Source: Thermoanaerobaculia bacterium (GTDB taxonomy: Bacteria > Acidobacteriota > Thermoanaerobaculia > Multivoradales > JAGPDF01). Taken from it: a DNA stretch of 43,293 nucleotides. The position numbers and the translations under genes were made by a program. Below the pieces are notes generated by a model. The model saw nothing but the letters and a program-made list of their open reading frames with translations. It searched no databases and was not told where the DNA came from. The DNA is taken from assembly GCA_018057705.1 (NCBI GenBank), contig JAGPDF010000019.1, positions 26,007 to 69,299 of the forward strand, written 5' to 3'. Below, in pieces: positions 34,998 to 40,627 of this stretch. How positions within the stretch are numbered: position 1 is the stretch's first letter; the number at the start of each line of letters is the position of its first letter.

Positions 34998-35158
34998 TCC
35001 AAAGAGGTGGTCTAGGTCCGGAACCGGCCGGAATCCCGCGGTGAGGGAACCGTAGTCGTGCCGTAACCGCCGACCGCGAACTGCTTCACACCCCGACCGC
35101 GCGGCCTCGTGCGAGCCTCCGTGTCGCAACTTCCCAGGTTTCTCCGAGGAGATCGTTG

Positions 35159-38100
35159 ATGCCCTTCTCCGCCTCGCACTCGCTACGATCGACGCCTGCC
35201 GCCGACCCCTGCGCTCCTGGCAGACGGCGCGAACGGCGACACCACGGGCGCGCTCAGCCCCGGCTGGCCCACGCACTGGTGGCGGCCGCCCTCCTCGCCC
35301 CGGCGCTCCTCGCCGGAGCGGGCTTCCCCAATGCTCCGCAGACTCCAGGCACGCTCCTGTCCGGGCTGCTCGCGCCGAACCAGGGCCGGACGGCGATCCT
35401 CGCGTACCACAACGGCATCCTGTTCTCGGTCCCCGAGGTGCCCTCGAGCGAGCCCGGATCGGATTTCCAGGTGCGCACCTGGGATCTCGCCGACCCGGAA
35501 AATCCGGTTCAGCTCGCCACCTGGGGCGTCACCCCCATGCCGATCAACGCCCACGGCTACCTGCAAAGCGGCGACTACCTCGTCCTCGGTGCCAACTGGC
35601 CGCCGGAGGCCCCCTGGTCGTTTCGCGCCAACCCCGCCTTCGGCAGCCTCACCCGCACGACCTATCCCGATCTTCTCTGCGCCGGCGTCCGCGGCTGTCT
35701 CTTCCAGCCGTTCTTCGTCGGCGACACCTGGTGGAGCTACGGCGCGATCTCCGGCCTCGCGACGATCGAACGAAACGGCGTGGAGCTCGGCAGCTGGGAT
35801 CACCTCGGTCTCACCGGGGTCGTCGGCCATCCGTTCCTGATCGGCAACCTCCTCATCTTCGCCTCCGACCAGAGCCGCACGGGAGTGGCAACCTACGACG
35901 TCTCGGACCCGGCGAATCCGGTGCTCCTCGACGTCTTGACGAGCGGCGGGCCGGGGGGCTATTGGCCGGAGGTCTGGGGCGGGGACGGCAAGCTCTACGT
36001 GGTGTTCCCCTACCGCGACGGCGGCAACGGCATGCAGGTGGTCGACGTCACCGACCCCTCGGATCTCCGGCTGATCGCCGACACCCCGCTGCCGGGCGCG
36101 GCCGCGATGTACGCCCAGTTCCAGGACGAGTTCGCCTTCATCGGCGACCACAAGGTCGACATGCGCACCTTCGAGTCGGTCCTCGACCTCCACGGCGCGA
36201 CCGTGCCGCACACCACCGGCGGTGGCGTCGGCATCGACACCTCGCAGTTCGCCCTGCCGCTCGGCAACCTCCTGGTCACCGGCGGCGTCGGCGAGAACCA
36301 GGGCATGGCGGTCTGGGCGCACCAGGCGGCTCCCGACACGCGCGGGCCGTCGGTCGGCTTCCACATCCCGCGCGCCGGACAGACGAACTACCCCGCCGGC
36401 TCGCCGATCACCCTGCTCATCCACGAGACTCTCGAGACGCCGACCGTCGTCAACGGCGCGACCTTCATCGTCCGCCCGGTGGGCGGCTCGAGCATCGCCG
36501 GCCGGTTGACCTTCGCCTTCGACGACATCCTGACGTTCACCCCCGACCAGCCGCTCTCCGCGAACACGACCTACGAGGTGCTCCTGCCGGCCGGCGGCAT
36601 CGAGGACGCCGCCGGCAACGGCATGGCCGGCTACAGCTTCACCTTCTCCACCGGCTCGACGGTGAACGGCAACTCGCCGCCAACCCTGACCAGCTACGCG
36701 GCCTCACCGTACCCAGCCGCTCCCGGGGAGTCGGTCACTTTCGTCGCGACCGCGGTCGAACCGCAGAGCGAGGCGGTCGAGTACCGGTTCGACTTCGGCG
36801 ACGGCTCGCCGAAGACCGTCTGGGGTGGCGCCAACGCGAACCACACCTACGCGTCCACCGGGCACTTCCGTGCCACCGTTCAGGCGCGCGACCCGCACGG
36901 CGCGATCGCCTCGCGCACCCGCGTCGTCACCGTCGCGGTTCCGCCAGGAGGGCCGTCGCCTGCCGCCAGCACCTCGGTGCTGTGCGACGCCTCCGCCCGC
37001 CGCGTCTGGACGGTGAACCCCGACCACGGCACCGTCGCCGCGCTCGACGCCGACTCGGGGGCGTTCGAGCTCGAGACCGCCGTCTGCGCCAAACCGCGAG
37101 CGCTCGCCCGTGCGGCGGGCGGCGAAATCTGGGTCACCTGCGGCGACGACGACCGCATCCGCGTTCTCGATGCCGGCGGCTCGGTGGTCGACGAGATTCC
37201 GACCGGTTACGGCAGTGGGCCGGCAGGGCTGGTCGCCTCCCCGGCGGGAGAGACGCTCTACGTCGCCCTCGAAGGCCGCGGCGAGGTGCGCCGGATCGAC
37301 GCCGCCTCGCGCCAGACCACCGCGACGCTCACGCTCGGACCGTCGCCGCGGGCGTTGGCGCTCTCGGCCGACGGCGCACGCCTGCTCGTCACCCGCTTCC
37401 TTTCCGACCGCGACTGGGGGGAGGTCTGGGACGTCTCCACGGCGACTCTGACGCTCACCCGCACGATCCGCCTGCCCAAGCTCGGCGGCGACGCCCATCG
37501 CGACAGCACCGCCGATGGCCGCGGCACGCCGAACCAGCTGGTGGCCATCGCCATCTCTCCCACCGGCACCCATGCCTGGGTCGCGGCCACCAAACCGAAC
37601 GTCGAGCGCGGCCATCTCTTCGGCCCCGACCTCGATTCCGACAACACGGTACGGGCGACACTGGTCGAGCTGGCGCTCGCCTCCGGCACCGCCGTGCGGG
37701 CGATCGACCTCGACAACAGCGACTCGCCTTCGGCGCTCGCCTTCTCGCCGCTCGGGGACTACCTCTTCGTGACCCTGCAGGGAGATGACGAGCTCGTGAT
37801 CCTCGACGCCTTCGAAATCGAGAACGCGGCCGGATTGGGCTCGCTCGTCACCCGCCTGGCGACCGGTTCCGCGCCCCAGGGGCTCTGCACGGACGCCGCG
37901 AGCGACCGCATCTTCACGAAGGACTTCCTCGGCCGCACGACCACCCTCTTCGACGCCGGCGACTTCTATGCCGGCGGCTCGATCCAGCTGCCATCGAGCG
38001 CCGTCGAGAGCGCCGGGACGCTCGCCGGCGAGCCGTTGCCGGAGGACGTCCTCGCCGGCAAGCGCCTCTTCTACCATGCGCGCGATCCGCGGATGAGCGC

Positions 38101-39325
38101 CGAGGGCTACCTCTCCTGCGCCACCTGTCATCTCGAAGGCCGCGCCGACGGCCGCGTCTGGGACTTCACCGGCCGCGGCGAGGGGTTGCGCCGCACCCTG
38201 CCCCTGGTCGGCCGGGCGGGGACCGGACAGGGCAACGTCCACTGGAGCGCCAATTTCGACGAGATCCAGGACTTCGAGAACGACATCCGCGACGCCTTCG
38301 GAGGTAACGGCTTCATGGACGACGACGACTACGCCGCGACCGCGGCGCCGCTCGGGCCGCCCAAGGCGGGTCTGTCGATGGACCTCGATCGGCTCGCCGC
38401 CTACGTCGCTTCCCTCGGCAGGACCGCCGTCCCGCGCAGCCCGTACCGCAACGCCGACGGCAGTCTCACGGCCGCCGCGGTCGCCGGCCGGACGCACTTT
38501 CGCGCCCTGGCCTGCACGGCCTGCCACCGCGGCCCCTCCTTCACCGATTCGAGCCTGGGCACAGCGACCCTCCACGACGTCGGAACGTTGCGAACGACGT
38601 CGGGCGGCCGCCTCGGCGGACCGCTCACCGGCATCGACACGCCGACGCTTCTCGGGCTCTGGACGCAGTCGAGCTACCTCCACGACGGCTCGGCTCCGAA
38701 CCTCGACTCCCTCTTCAACACAGCCGGCGGTACCGTCCTGCCGGCCGAGGCGGCGAGCCCCTCTGCCGGCGCCCAGATCGTCAGCAACTACGTCGAGCTC
38801 AACAACGATGACACCGTCCGCGGCAGAGCCTACGCGGCGCTCGGGCCGAACGGGGCGCGCGTGACCTTCGCGGGCGTCGACGGCGGCGCCGGCGGCATCG
38901 GGGCGATCGAGCTCCGCTACAGCAGCTCCGGTGCGGCGCAGGTGGGCGTCGCGGTGAACGGCGTGGCGCAAGATCTCGCCCTGGCGGCGGTCGGCAACAA
39001 CCCCTCGTGGCGCCACACGAACTGGCGGACGGCGCGGCTCGAGGGGGTCGTCTTCGCCGCCGGTGGCACGAACACGCTCGAGATCACCGCCACCAGCGCC
39101 TTCCCCAACCTGAGCCTCGACGAGATCACGGTGACGCGGCCGGACGAGCTCGCGCTCGCCGCCCCGCACCGGGTCGCCGGAGCGCTCGCCCCCGGAGAGC
39201 GCGCCGAGCTCGCGGCCTACCTGTTGCAACTCGACGCCACACCGGAAGACAACCCGGGCGGCGCCCTCTTTCTCGACGGCTTTGCGAGCGGCGGCACGGG
39301 CGCCTGGTCCTCGACCGTGCCCTGA
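35159..39325 (+). CDS. Secreted multidomain diheme cytochrome / beta-propeller protein
   Basis: The 1388-residue product starts at the ATG at 35159 behind GAGGAG. The Arg-rich start and hydrophobic 'LVAAALLAPALLAGAGF' suggest secretion. Domains in order: an LVIVD-like propeller (about 55-390, 'VATYDVSDPANPVLLDVL'); an Ig-like Big_5 domain (394-500, 'LTFTPDQPLSANTTYEV'); a PKD domain (507-597, 'YRFDFGDGSPKTVW'); a YVTN-type propeller (600-935); a diheme c-type peroxidase-like module with Cys987-x2-Cys-His991 and Cys1119-x2-Cys-His1123; a CBM6-like domain (about 1207-1328). The tail 'LFLDGFASGGTGAWSSTVP' closes the protein. An extracellular redox or polymer-attacking role is inferred; no substrate is visible. 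Confidence 0.85.
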   Translation: MPFSASHSLRSTPAADPCAPGRRRERRHHGRAQPRLAHALVAAALLAPALLAGAGFPNAPQTPGTLLSGLLAPNQGRTAILAYHNGILFSVPEVPSSEPGSDFQVRTWDLADPENPVQLATWGVTPMPINAHGYLQSGDYLVLGANWPPEAPWSFRANPAFGSLTRTTYPDLLCAGVRGCLFQPFFVGDTWWSYGAISGLATIERNGVELGSWDHLGLTGVVGHPFLIGNLLIFASDQSRTGVATYDVSDPANPVLLDVLTSGGPGGYWPEVWGGDGKLYVVFPYRDGGNGMQVVDVTDPSDLRLIADTPLPGAAAMYAQFQDEFAFIGDHKVDMRTFESVLDLHGATVPHTTGGGVGIDTSQFALPLGNLLVTGGVGENQGMAVWAHQAAPDTRGPSVGFHIPRAGQTNYPAGSPITLLIHETLETPTVVNGATFIVRPVGGSSIAGRLTFAFDDILTFTPDQPLSANTTYEVLLPAGGIEDAAGNGMAGYSFTFSTGSTVNGNSPPTLTSYAASPYPAAPGESVTFVATAVEPQSEAVEYRFDFGDGSPKTVWGGANANHTYASTGHFRATVQARDPHGAIASRTRVVTVAVPPGGPSPAASTSVLCDASARRVWTVNPDHGTVAALDADSGAFELETAVCAKPRALARAAGGEIWVTCGDDDRIRVLDAGGSVVDEIPTGYGSGPAGLVASPAGETLYVALEGRGEVRRIDAASRQTTATLTLGPSPRALALSADGARLLVTRFLSDRDWGEVWDVSTATLTLTRTIRLPKLGGDAHRDSTADGRGTPNQLVAIAISPTGTHAWVAATKPNVERGHLFGPDLDSDNTVRATLVELALASGTAVRAIDLDNSDSPSALAFSPLGDYLFVTLQGDDELVILDAFEIENAAGLGSLVTRLATGSAPQGLCTDAASDRIFTKDFLGRTTTLFDAGDFYAGGSIQLPSSAVESAGTLAGEPLPEDVLAGKRLFYHARDPRMSAEGYLSCATCHLEGRADGRVWDFTGRGEGLRRTLPLVGRAGTGQGNVHWSANFDEIQDFENDIRDAFGGNGFMDDDDYAATAAPLGPPKAGLSMDLDRLAAYVASLGRTAVPRSPYRNADGSLTAAAVAGRTHFRALACTACHRGPSFTDSSLGTATLHDVGTLRTTSGGRLGGPLTGIDTPTLLGLWTQSSYLHDGSAPNLDSLFNTAGGTVLPAEAASPSAGAQIVSNYVELNNDDTVRGRAYAALGPNGARVTFAGVDGGAGGIGAIELRYSSSGAAQVGVAVNGVAQDLALAAVGNNPSWRHTNWRTARLEGVVFAAGGTNTLEITATSAFPNLSLDEITVTRPDELALAAPHRVAGALAPGERAELAAYLLQLDATPEDNPGGALFLDGFASGGTGAWSSTVP

Positions 39326-39343: not shown

Positions 39344-40024
39344 GTGGCCGCATCCCCGCTCCTTGCCACCGCTCGACGGATCGCCGGCTACGGCGCCCTC
39401 TGCGGTCTGCTGCTCGCCGCGCTGCGCTTCACCGAGTACCGCTTCCTGGTGCTCGAGCACTCGGTCGAGATCTGGGGCGGGCTCATCGCCGCCCTCTTCG
39501 CGACGCTCGGGATCTTCCTCGGCCTGCGCCTCACCCGCACCCGCGTCGAGAGGGTCCTCGTCCCGGTCGAAGTGCCCATCCCGGTGCCGGCCGGCGTGCC
39601 CGTTCCGGGGGGCACCCCGTTTTCGGTCGACGAGCGCCGCCGGAAAGAGCTGGGCGTCACCGCCCGCGAGCTCGAGATCCTCGGGCTCATCGCCGCAGGC
39701 CTCTCCAACCGCGAGATCGCCGAACGCCTCTTCGTCAGCGAGAACACCGTGAAGACCCACTCGAGCCGGCTGTTCGACAAGCTGGGAGCCCGCCGAAGGA
39801 CGCAGGCGGTGCAGCTCGGCCAGGCCGCAGGCCTGCTCCCCCCGGGGCCGCAGGCCCCTTTCCCAGTACCGCAGGCCCCTTTCCCGGTGCCGCAGGGCCC
39901 TTTCCAGGTACCGCAGGCCCCTTTCCCAGTACCGCCGGGCTCCTCTCCGGCGGGAGCCCTCACCCGAAAGCACGAAATCGGGCGAGAATCGCCCGGTACA
40001 GCGAAAAATCACTCGAACGGGTGA
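39344..40024 (+). CDS. Membrane-anchored LuxR-type transcriptional regulator
   Basis: The 226-residue product uses a GTG start at 39344. Two N-terminal TM helices (about 14-30 and 43-62) precede a charged linker ('VERVLVPVEVPIPVPAGVPV'). A GerE/LuxR helix-turn-helix is at about 102-165 ('GVTARELEILGLIAAGLSNREIAERLFVSENTVKTHSSRLFDKLG'-type core, shown here in part). The C-terminus carries four Pro-Gln-x-Pro-Phe-(P/Q)-Val units. Regulators of this layout are commonly paired with DUF4199 genes, as here 87 bp downstream. The signal is unknown. The only 18-bp gap to the large secreted protein allows co-transcription. Confidence 0.87.
   Translation: MAASPLLATARRIAGYGALCGLLLAALRFTEYRFLVLEHSVEIWGGLIAALFATLGIFLGLRLTRTRVERVLVPVEVPIPVPAGVPVPGGTPFSVDERRRKELGVTARELEILGLIAAGLSNREIAERLFVSENTVKTHSSRLFDKLGARRRTQAVQLGQAAGLLPPGPQAPFPVPQAPFPVPQGPFQVPQAPFPVPPGSSPAGALTRKHEIGRESPGTAKNHSNG
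39848..39931 (+). repeat. 21-bp tandem repeat, four copies, in the LuxR-type gene
   Basis: Four 21-bp units start at 39848, 39869, 39890 and 39911; the first and last are identical. They encode the heptapeptide Pro-Gln-Ala-Pro-Phe-Pro-Val with minor changes, behind the DNA-binding domain. Confidence 0.9.
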
Positions 40025-40111
40025 CGACGGCGGCGCGGCGCAGGACCTATCGTCCGCACCGGATCGCGGCATCGAAGCCGCTGCTCCCCGCCGTCACAGG
40101 AGACGAAAGCC

Positions 40112-40627
40112 ATGTCGATGAAGCGCACGATTCTCACCTGGGGCCTGATCGCGGGCGTCGTCTCGATCAGCATGATGCTCGCCACCATGCCGTTCGCCGA
40201 CCGCATCGGCTTCGAGTACGGCATGGTGATCGGCTATACCGCGCTGGTGCTTTCGGCGCTGCTGATCTTCCCCGGCATGCGCTCGTATCGCGACAGCGTC
40301 GCCGGAGGCAAAATGAGCTTCGGCAGGGGCTTTCTCGTCGGCCTGGGCATCGCCGCGGTGGCGTCGGTCTGCTACGGCATCGTCTGGGCGATCGTCTACG
40401 CCAACTTCATGCCCGACTTCTGTGACAAGTACGCCGCCTTCATGATCGACAAGGTCAAGGCCGCCGGCGGATCGGCGGAGAAGATCGCCGAAGCGACCGC
40501 CCAGGCGGCGCAGATGAAGCGCATGATGGACAATCCGCTGATCAACGCCGCCATGGCCTTCCTCGAGCCGTTCCCGGTCGGCCTCCTCGCCTCGGCGATC
40601 TCGGCCGGCATCCTGCGGAAGAAGTGA
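40112..40627 (+). CDS. DUF4199 membrane protein
   Basis: The 171-residue product has four TM helices (about 7-26, 37-55, 72-95, 147-165). The family pattern includes 'MVIGYTALVLSALLIFPGMRSYRD', 'GGKMSFGRGFLVGLGIAAVAS' and the helical segment 'GGSAEKIAEATAQAAQMKRMMDNP'. The ATG at 40112 follows AGGAGACGAAAGCC. DUF4199 proteins have no assigned activity. The adjacent membrane-anchored LuxR-type gene suggests a signalling pair. Confidence 0.88.
   Translation: MSMKRTILTWGLIAGVVSISMMLATMPFADRIGFEYGMVIGYTALVLSALLIFPGMRSYRDSVAGGKMSFGRGFLVGLGIAAVASVCYGIVWAIVYANFMPDFCDKYAAFMIDKVKAAGGSAEKIAEATAQAAQMKRMMDNPLINAAMAFLEPFPVGLLASAISAGILRKK

Follow-up and report, generated by a model that had tools for sequence, protein, structure and literature searches.

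The locus described here raises the question of what a bacterium would do with a single polypeptide that strings together two beta-propellers, an Ig-like domain, a PKD domain, a diheme cytochrome block, and a carbohydrate-binding module (CBM)-like domain. The gene is an open reading frame (ORF) at 35159 to 39325 on the forward strand of the window, by which we mean the whole 43,293-nucleotide stretch that was analyzed (Thermoanaerobaculia bacterium, GCA_018057705.1, contig JAGPDF010000019.1, positions 26,007 to 69,299). We propose, with a probability of roughly 0.55, that it encodes a Sec-exported, surface-retained diheme c-type oxidoreductase of the MauG/peroxidase type, with anchoring by its CBM and a C-terminal retention tag. 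The domain order, the insertion of the CBM-like module within a cytochrome domain, the conservation of residues, the homology to the beta and gamma subunits of hydrazine synthase (HZS), and the statistics of the tag are direct observations. A preliminary description of this DNA had listed these same modules in a 1,388-residue protein, which ORF analysis, domain searches, and models bear out; the insertion and the tag are absent from it.

A propeller-diheme core related to hydrazine synthase

The features that carry this reading are the following. Residue numbers count from a TTG at 35156, and numbering from the ATG at 35159 is lower by one.

36971..37972, + strand: YVTN beta-propeller, residues 606-939 (best PDB fold match, HZS beta)
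38033..38440, + strand: first cytochrome domain, CCP_MauG (Pfam and profile)
38117..38131, + strand: heme 1 site, C988-x2-C991-H992 (80/80 relatives)
38231..38284, + strand: conserved GNVHWSANFDEIQDFEND stretch, with W1030 a candidate inter-heme Trp (alignment, biased by scan patterns)
38477..38740, + strand: second cytochrome domain, first part (profile)
38513..38527, + strand: heme 2 site, C1120-x2-C1123-H1124 (conservation; aligns with HZS gamma His229)
38741..39151, + strand: CBM35/CBM6-like jelly roll within the second cytochrome domain, residues 1196-1332 (profile, model, 79/80 relatives)
39152..39241, + strand: second cytochrome domain resumed, APHR...LAAYLLQLD, residues 1336-1360 (alignment and profile)
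39167..39169, + strand: H1338, candidate distal ligand of heme 2 (aligns weakly with HZS gamma His332)
39266..39322, + strand: C-terminal tag LFLDGFASGGTGAWSSTVP, last 19 residues (motif scans and alignment)

The YVTN repeat scores 37.6 bits, above its NCBIfam cut-off of 27.85, and the best PDB fold for this propeller is HZS beta (5c2v_B; Foldseek E 6.1e-18, VIA-align Z 39.1, root mean square deviation [rmsd] 1.9, 310 residues aligned), followed by an archaeal surface-layer YVTN protein (Z 37.3). Because propellers fill the fold list of the 793-residue model, the cytochrome and CBM parts were assigned by sequence profiles. The best PDB profile match of the diheme block is HZS gamma (5c2v_C, E 1.9e-20), with weaker matches to bacterial cytochrome c peroxidases (CCPs; 1.1e-14 and weaker) and to MauG (2.1e-5 at best), and membership in the superfamily is indicated by the CCP_MauG domain (PF03150), at 31.8 bits against a gathering score of 25.6. 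The window protein thus has the layout of a fusion, an HZS-beta-type propeller followed by a diheme domain. HZS beta-gamma-like fusions in diverse non-anammox bacteria have already been published, in clades chosen for a nearby alpha-like gene (excerpts of PMC12758564). The suggestion that no characterized protein has this order holds for the complete order, in the literature searched and among PDB sequences, but not for the core, for which HZS beta and gamma are characterized, fusions are in print, and the architecture is common.

A scan of GTDB species contigs gave 401 candidate stretches, 335 of which encode a relative; the counts of relatives given here rest on the best 80 of the 335. Both CxxCH sites are conserved in all 80 which, together with the CCP_MauG match, upholds the earlier placement of two such sites in a peroxidase-like block. 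Residues C988, C991, H992, H1029, W1030, N1033, D1035, E1036, Q1038, D1039, D1043, C1120, C1123, H1124, and H1176 are identical throughout, and H1338 is present in 79/80 (a gap in L108). The relatives were picked partly by the patterns NFDEIQD and [HQ]GNVHW[ST]A, so the conservation of residues 1026-1039 is biased, the scan having selected for part of that stretch. W1030 and Q1038, candidates for an inter-heme Trp and a distal Gln, lie in this biased stretch and are unaligned to MauG and CCP. The 80 relatives show no apparent conserved distal ligand for heme 1, which would fit an open, catalytic heme.

In bacterial CCPs proper, a Met is the distal ligand of the C-terminal heme; the aligned position here is His1338, in a part where the alignment is weak. 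A profile alignment with HZS gamma pairs H992 with His106, H1124 with His229, and H1338 with His332 (chain positions converted via Cys102/Cys105/His106, from excerpts of PMC12758564), and His229 and His332 are the ligands of HZS heme gamma-II (excerpts of PMC12607021). Heme 2 is thus a candidate for bis-His ligation.

The second cytochrome domain runs from its CxxCH (residues 1120-1124) through YLHDGSA to a GG, breaks for ~137 residues, and resumes with APHR...LAAYLLQLD in an 18-protein alignment. The insert sits just before the near-invariant H1338 and is kept in 79/80 relatives (L108 is truncated). The preliminary description had recognized this CBM-like domain but placed it after the peroxidase-like block. 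Over the insert, a profile from 40 relatives matches solved CBMs of a GH31 enzyme (5x7o, 6.7e-9), Xyn30D (4qb1, 1.6e-8), and esterase D (2w46, 1.5e-5), modules that we take to be CBM35. The insert therefore appears closest to CBM35 and is predicted to bind sugar.

The C-terminal tail

The tag has the consensus [LI]FxDGFESGDTSAWSxTVP, with a short form ending in [LI]Fx[DN]GFE in Lysobacterales. Twenty full- or near-full-length proteins of this architecture, including that of the window, and the C-terminal half encoded at L084 end in versions of it. Searching the window's own genome with a DNA pattern for the motif core gives 107 matches, against 3 in a reversed control. The tag-place statistics cover 91 distinct places in 91 loci of this genome; at 80 of them, a stop follows within 25 residues, and at 64 the distance to it, counted from the motif start, is exactly 16 residues. 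Of the 80 terminal tags, 72 have Phe at position -2, which the pattern does not require. A signal-peptide-like start is found by a crude test in 33/60 tag ORFs versus 34/283 control ORFs. With a stricter pattern, the tag occurs in 56/147 genomes of the class, in up to 97 copies and with one control match overall; within family f7, genus g23 (21 genomes) is tag free and the three other genera have 14, 50, and 89 copies. Outside the class, two of 264 genomes in the phylum sample (297 searched, 33 in the class) have a single match. We note that one tag-bearing frame (L176; G000:C23) has sub-cut-off matches to multiheme cytochrome models (ExtKL, 25.2 bits; decaheme, 22.3 bits) and is possibly a tagged redox protein.

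Four observations suggest that the tail is a sorting signal. First, homologues in other hosts carry other ends. Rough regular expressions divide the tails of the 80 relatives into 13 with the extended tag, 13 with a bare or near-bare F.DGFE end, 6 hydrophobic-basic (three of them Gly/Ser-rich), 6 open, and 42 others, among which is the hydrophobic-basic end of L125. Second, the short form is a genome-wide feature too. Of eight genomes chosen for a bare-tailed homologue, seven (all but Wenzhouxiangella G153) contain [FILMV]Fx[DN]GFE plus a stop, 3 to 45 times each; of nine others, one has it, a single time and within a frame of 71 residues, and there are 0 control matches. The stop directly follows the string in 45/76 and 30/94 cases in the two richest genomes, with one stop-less control match.

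Third, the tail type follows the host on a tree of the core (FastTree only). A Thermoanaerobaculia paralogue with an extended tail (L142) is sister, with support of 96, to the bare-tailed Pseudomarimonas protein (L150; Lysobacteraceae), and the pair lies inside a proteobacterial group whose ends are bare or variant; bare-tailed Lysobacterales stand among extended-tailed proteins in the main clade, at poorly resolved forks. Fourth, when 20 tag proteins from this genome were scanned against NCBIfam, one matched choice-of-anchor B (411.7 bits, cut-off 100) and also choice-of-anchor J (34.2 bits, cut-off 30), and another proved to be an M36 peptidase that matches models dependent on the type IX secretion system (T9SS), rhombosortase, and myxosortase (555.8, 204.2, and 200.7 bits, all sub-cut-off); these families use other sorting signals elsewhere.

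It is about an even proposition that the tail represents a new class of C-terminal sorting signal, one without a membrane helix and read by a dedicated export or retention machine, whose cargo includes surface HZS-like redox enzymes. The HZS-like tagged proteins of this genome are the beta-gamma-like window protein and an HZS-alpha-like protein (L212). No family model for the tag was found in NCBIfam (14 C-terminal pieces) or Pfam (11 pieces), a cobalt-precorrin methyltransferase model overlapping the tag of one piece at chance level (11.8 versus 399 bits). The literature searched does not contain DGFESGD; GFESGD occurs in two papers, both on human peptides judging by title and abstract, and among the papers listed the three with DGFE have unrelated titles. 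By title, no such tail appears in the literature on sorting signals and Acidobacteria.

Several observations weigh against a sorting signal. PEP-CTERM signals are tripartite. So are MYXO-CTERM and GlyGly-CTERM, with a motif, a hydrophobic helix, and a basic end (from excerpts of the literature), and the tag has neither a hydrophobic membrane helix nor a basic end. Eleven of the 91 tag places are non-terminal: in nine of these, 26 to 184 residues follow, counted from the motif start, and in L041 and L056 the tag lies in the first third (residue 127 of a 433-residue frame and 84 of a 595-residue frame). Several tag-positive genomes hold only 1 to 4 copies, and the 42 relatives with none of the three tail types often have long extensions. 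No sorting enzyme for the tag was found among the candidates tried. The large 1,301- and 1,294-residue frames L195 and L205 have the tag ~150 residues before their ends.

T9SS/gingipain-type machinery was one such candidate. Peptidase_C25 is present in 46/56 tag-positive and 31/91 tag-negative genomes of the class and was rejected because it is missing from 10 tag-positive genomes, including G049 (14 tag copies), G050 (23), and G108 (12), an absence that again speaks against the signal. Gingipain-type genes of this family occur in 77/147 class genomes, with no tag-free g23 genome among them. SprA is found in 0/147 genomes and also in 0 controls and is thus uninformative.

The motif may instead be a small structural or binding element that was copied from one surface protein to another, for example the strand that opens a lectin-like jelly roll; we regard this as possible but doubtful. 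The non-terminal places are consistent with this explanation, as are the lack of structure of the tail in the model (pLDDT under 50) and the absence of the helix and basic end of the known tripartite signals. Against it, the distance of the motif from the end is constant in 64/91 places, the tag occupies the place where homologues have other ends, and its form follows the host on the tree.

The complete reading frame and its N-terminal scaffold

The remaining features of the gene are as follows.

35159..39325, + strand: coding sequence, 1,388 amino acids, ATG = residue 2, stop included (ORF and full-length relatives)
35159..35320, + strand: N-terminal region with a signal-peptide-like stretch at about residues 37-55 and a mature start at about G56 (read from the sequence)
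35324..36325, + strand: LVIVD-type beta-propeller, residues 57-390 (weak repeat match, model, and fold comparison)
36335..36652, + strand: Ig-like domain (Big_5), residues 394-499 (Pfam, 58.6 bits)
36695..36928, + strand: PKD domain, residues 514-591 (Pfam, 55.8 bits)

The ORF opens at the TTG at 35156 or the ATG at 35159, and the length of 1,388 amino acids follows from a start at the ATG, which has AGGAG 7 nucleotides upstream. A chance or misframed ORF was rejected because full-length relatives in the class, at 44 to 82% identity, keep the 1,389-codon frame. Apparent in-frame TGA codons in three homologues are ordinary terminal stops: after re-extraction, the L073, L076, and L082 proteins are free of internal stops. 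G56 is conserved at the start of the putative mature part in 19 aligned proteins.

Big_5 (394-499), PKD (514-591), and CCP_MauG (965-1023) exceed their Pfam gathering scores. Pfam otherwise gives weak propeller and RoxA-like signals. The LVIVD repeat is sub-threshold (17.2 bits, cut-off 20.2), and the best VIA-align match of the N-terminal propeller is a designed propeller (Z 16.8, rmsd 3.5, 270 aligned). Foldseek of the N-terminal model lists a PKD domain (4tn9), and VIA-align barely covered the Ig and PKD parts. AlphaFold models were built from alignments of 66 and 75 sequences (the window protein and GTDB relatives); the mean predicted local distance difference test score (pLDDT) is 94.9 for residues 40-600 and 89.3 for residues 597-1389, the latter with a predicted template modeling score (pTM) of 0.92 and pLDDT below 50 at about 780-784, at 1023-1035, and in the last 21 residues.

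Distribution and genomic neighborhood

The architecture is common across many phyla. The window's own genome has a single copy, together with a 407-amino-acid ORF that matches residues 1077-1218 at 32%. Surveying the architecture in related genomes had been recommended at the outset, and in the class, 19/148 genomes have matches at E 1e-15; 17 hold the architecture, one of them split at contig ends, and the other two have partial matches to other proteins only. By record title, the GTDB relatives come from Acidobacteriota, Verrucomicrobiota, Lysobacterales, Cellvibrionaceae, Myxococcota, Planctomycetota, Hydrogenedentota, Sumerlaeota, and others, although titles are unreliable as taxonomy: L121 and L124 are near-identical in the tree but titled Actinomycetota and Deltaproteobacteria. 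The N-terminal propeller region has at least 250 residues in 71/80 relatives; six of the remaining nine are cut by the end of a contig, and three (L096, L108, and L155) are not.

Downstream on the same strand, the window encodes a LuxR-type regulator, beginning 18 bp after the gene, and then a DUF4199 protein (39344-40627). Three flanking genes are matched only in one same-genus locus (L087) among the 80 relatives.

Proposed function and alternatives

In the mechanism that we propose, heme binding and ligation, catalysis, sugar binding, surface location, and tag function are all predicted from the features above. Sec would export the protein, and the last 19 residues would act as a host-specific sorting or retention tag, common to dozens of exported proteins, that holds it at the surface. 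The core would join a YVTN propeller to a diheme domain of the MauG/CCP type, on the pattern of HZS beta plus gamma, with the N-terminal propeller, Ig, and PKD domains serving as a scaffold. Heme 1, with H992 as its proximal ligand and no obvious conserved distal one, is the likely catalytic site, where peroxide or O2 chemistry seems most probable. Heme 2, ligated by H1124 and probably H1338, may relay electrons between an external redox partner and heme 1, and the inserted CBM35-like module beside the heme 2 ligand could tie the enzyme to the envelope or to surrounding polysaccharide. An extracellular oxidative enzyme attached to a polymer, as first imagined, thus agrees in outline with the signal-peptide-like start, the CCP_MauG domain, and the CBM35-type insert. 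For extracellular electron transfer there is no specific support, the best homologues being HZS beta, HZS gamma, and diheme peroxidases.

Some results speak against parts of this mechanism. The HW stretch (GNVHWSANFDE) is unaligned to MauG or CCP in the alignments shown and overlaps the low-confidence residues 1023-1035, and the segment that aligns H1338 with His332 scores 3.0 bits by itself. Pfam CBM_6 is below its cut-off (15.2 versus 28.9 bits), and the choice-of-anchor B match of the window protein itself is weak (17.8 versus 100 bits).

Of the other functions, the least improbable, although unlikely, is that of a MauG/MbnH-like modifier, whose substrate would be neither a small molecule nor a polymer but the side chains of a partner protein at the surface, oxidized with peroxide and the two hemes. 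The protein belongs to the same superfamily and the MauG and MbnH-family models do match, albeit far under cut-off (36.0 versus 443.85 and 23.9 versus 362.85 bits); moreover, SACCP/MopE and CorB/CorA are on record as surface-associated pairs with a diheme CCP-like member (excerpts of PMC3621798). The window gene, however, has no conserved neighbor that could be the substrate, given the same-genus restriction of its flanks, and its heme 2 ligand looks like His, in contrast to the Tyr of MauG (excerpts of PMC6405878).

The kinship with HZS raises nitrogen chemistry, in which heme 1 would reduce NO or a related species and feed an HZS-alpha-like partner subunit; we consider this improbable, somewhat more so than a modifier. 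No solved relatives are nearer than HZS beta and gamma, and the same genome encodes two proteins with PF18582 (HZS_alpha), one with the same kind of tag. Across the class, an HZS_alpha match occurs in 16/17 genomes with a window-type protein versus 34/131 without (kinship uncorrected). Nevertheless, 34/50 genomes with HZS_alpha lack a window-type protein, neither alpha-like gene shares a contig with the window, and tblastn finds no HZS-alpha-like gene in the loci of the 80 relatives (flanks up to 3.5 kb). The NCBIfam equivalogs are far out of reach (gamma, 46.2 versus 625 bits; fusion, 43 versus 1250 bits), and one pairwise alignment places Phe (F1048) at the position of HZS gamma Cys165, which forms a third heme bond (excerpts of PMC12758564).

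On these scores and this Phe, identity as a hydrazine synthase was rejected, as was an HZS operon, the alpha-like genes being on contigs C85 and C8 and the window on C19. The alpha-like protein on C85 (L212; G000:C85:1619-4675) has a PF18582 match of 49.7 bits, two CxxCH motifs, and the tag DGFATGTTAAWSATSP; the second match is at C8:12868.

A polymer or lipid dioxygenase like RoxA or oleate 10S-dioxygenase, with the CBM giving proximity to the substrate, is just as improbable as nitrogen chemistry, since RoxA-like_Cyt-c (PF21419) touches residues 1162-1189 at 20.9 bits but under its gathering score of 26.7 and the RoxC model reaches 12 versus 900 bits, even though the superfamily includes diheme fatty-acid oxygenases (excerpts of PMC4496055).

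If the protein is the surface-retained oxidoreductase that we favor, then the layout of HZS beta and gamma is also that of a widespread redox platform, probably bound to the surface and equipped with scaffold domains and a carbohydrate-binding-like module. The tail, if a sorting signal, would give access to the surface proteins of Thermoanaerobaculia and Lysobacterales, with dozens of cargo proteins per genome that can be read off the sequence, and its enzyme could be sought by gene profiling in the family with a tag-free genus and tag-bearing sister genera.

Comparison with known systems

The tag resembles MYXO-CTERM, GlyGly-CTERM, and PEP-CTERM in being a short C-terminal motif on dozens of proteins, host restricted, and found on choice-of-anchor families; it differs from them in its lack of a hydrophobic helix and a basic end, and no Pfam or NCBIfam model for it was found. 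The insert resembles the CBM35-type modules of Xyn30D, esterase D, and the GH31 enzyme, whose profile matches extend across it, but it lies inside a cytochrome domain.

With the CCP_MauG superfamily, the window protein shares the CCP_MauG domain above the gathering score, two CxxCH sites, and the HDG loop, whereas its heme 2 ligand is apparently His and an insert of ~137 residues precedes H1338. It can be likened by description to SACCP/MopE and CorB/CorA as a surface-associated diheme CCP-like protein, although unlike SACCP it has no MopE-like neighbor that we could see. The closest comparison is with HZS beta and gamma (5c2v chains B and C), the Scalindua beta-gamma fusion, and the non-anammox homologues, with which it has in common a YVTN-type propeller followed by a MauG/CCP diheme domain and a probable bis-His second heme. 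In contrast to HZS, the window protein has neither a Cys at the gamma-165 position nor an adjacent alpha gene, and it adds an extra propeller, Ig and PKD domains, an inserted CBM, and the tag.

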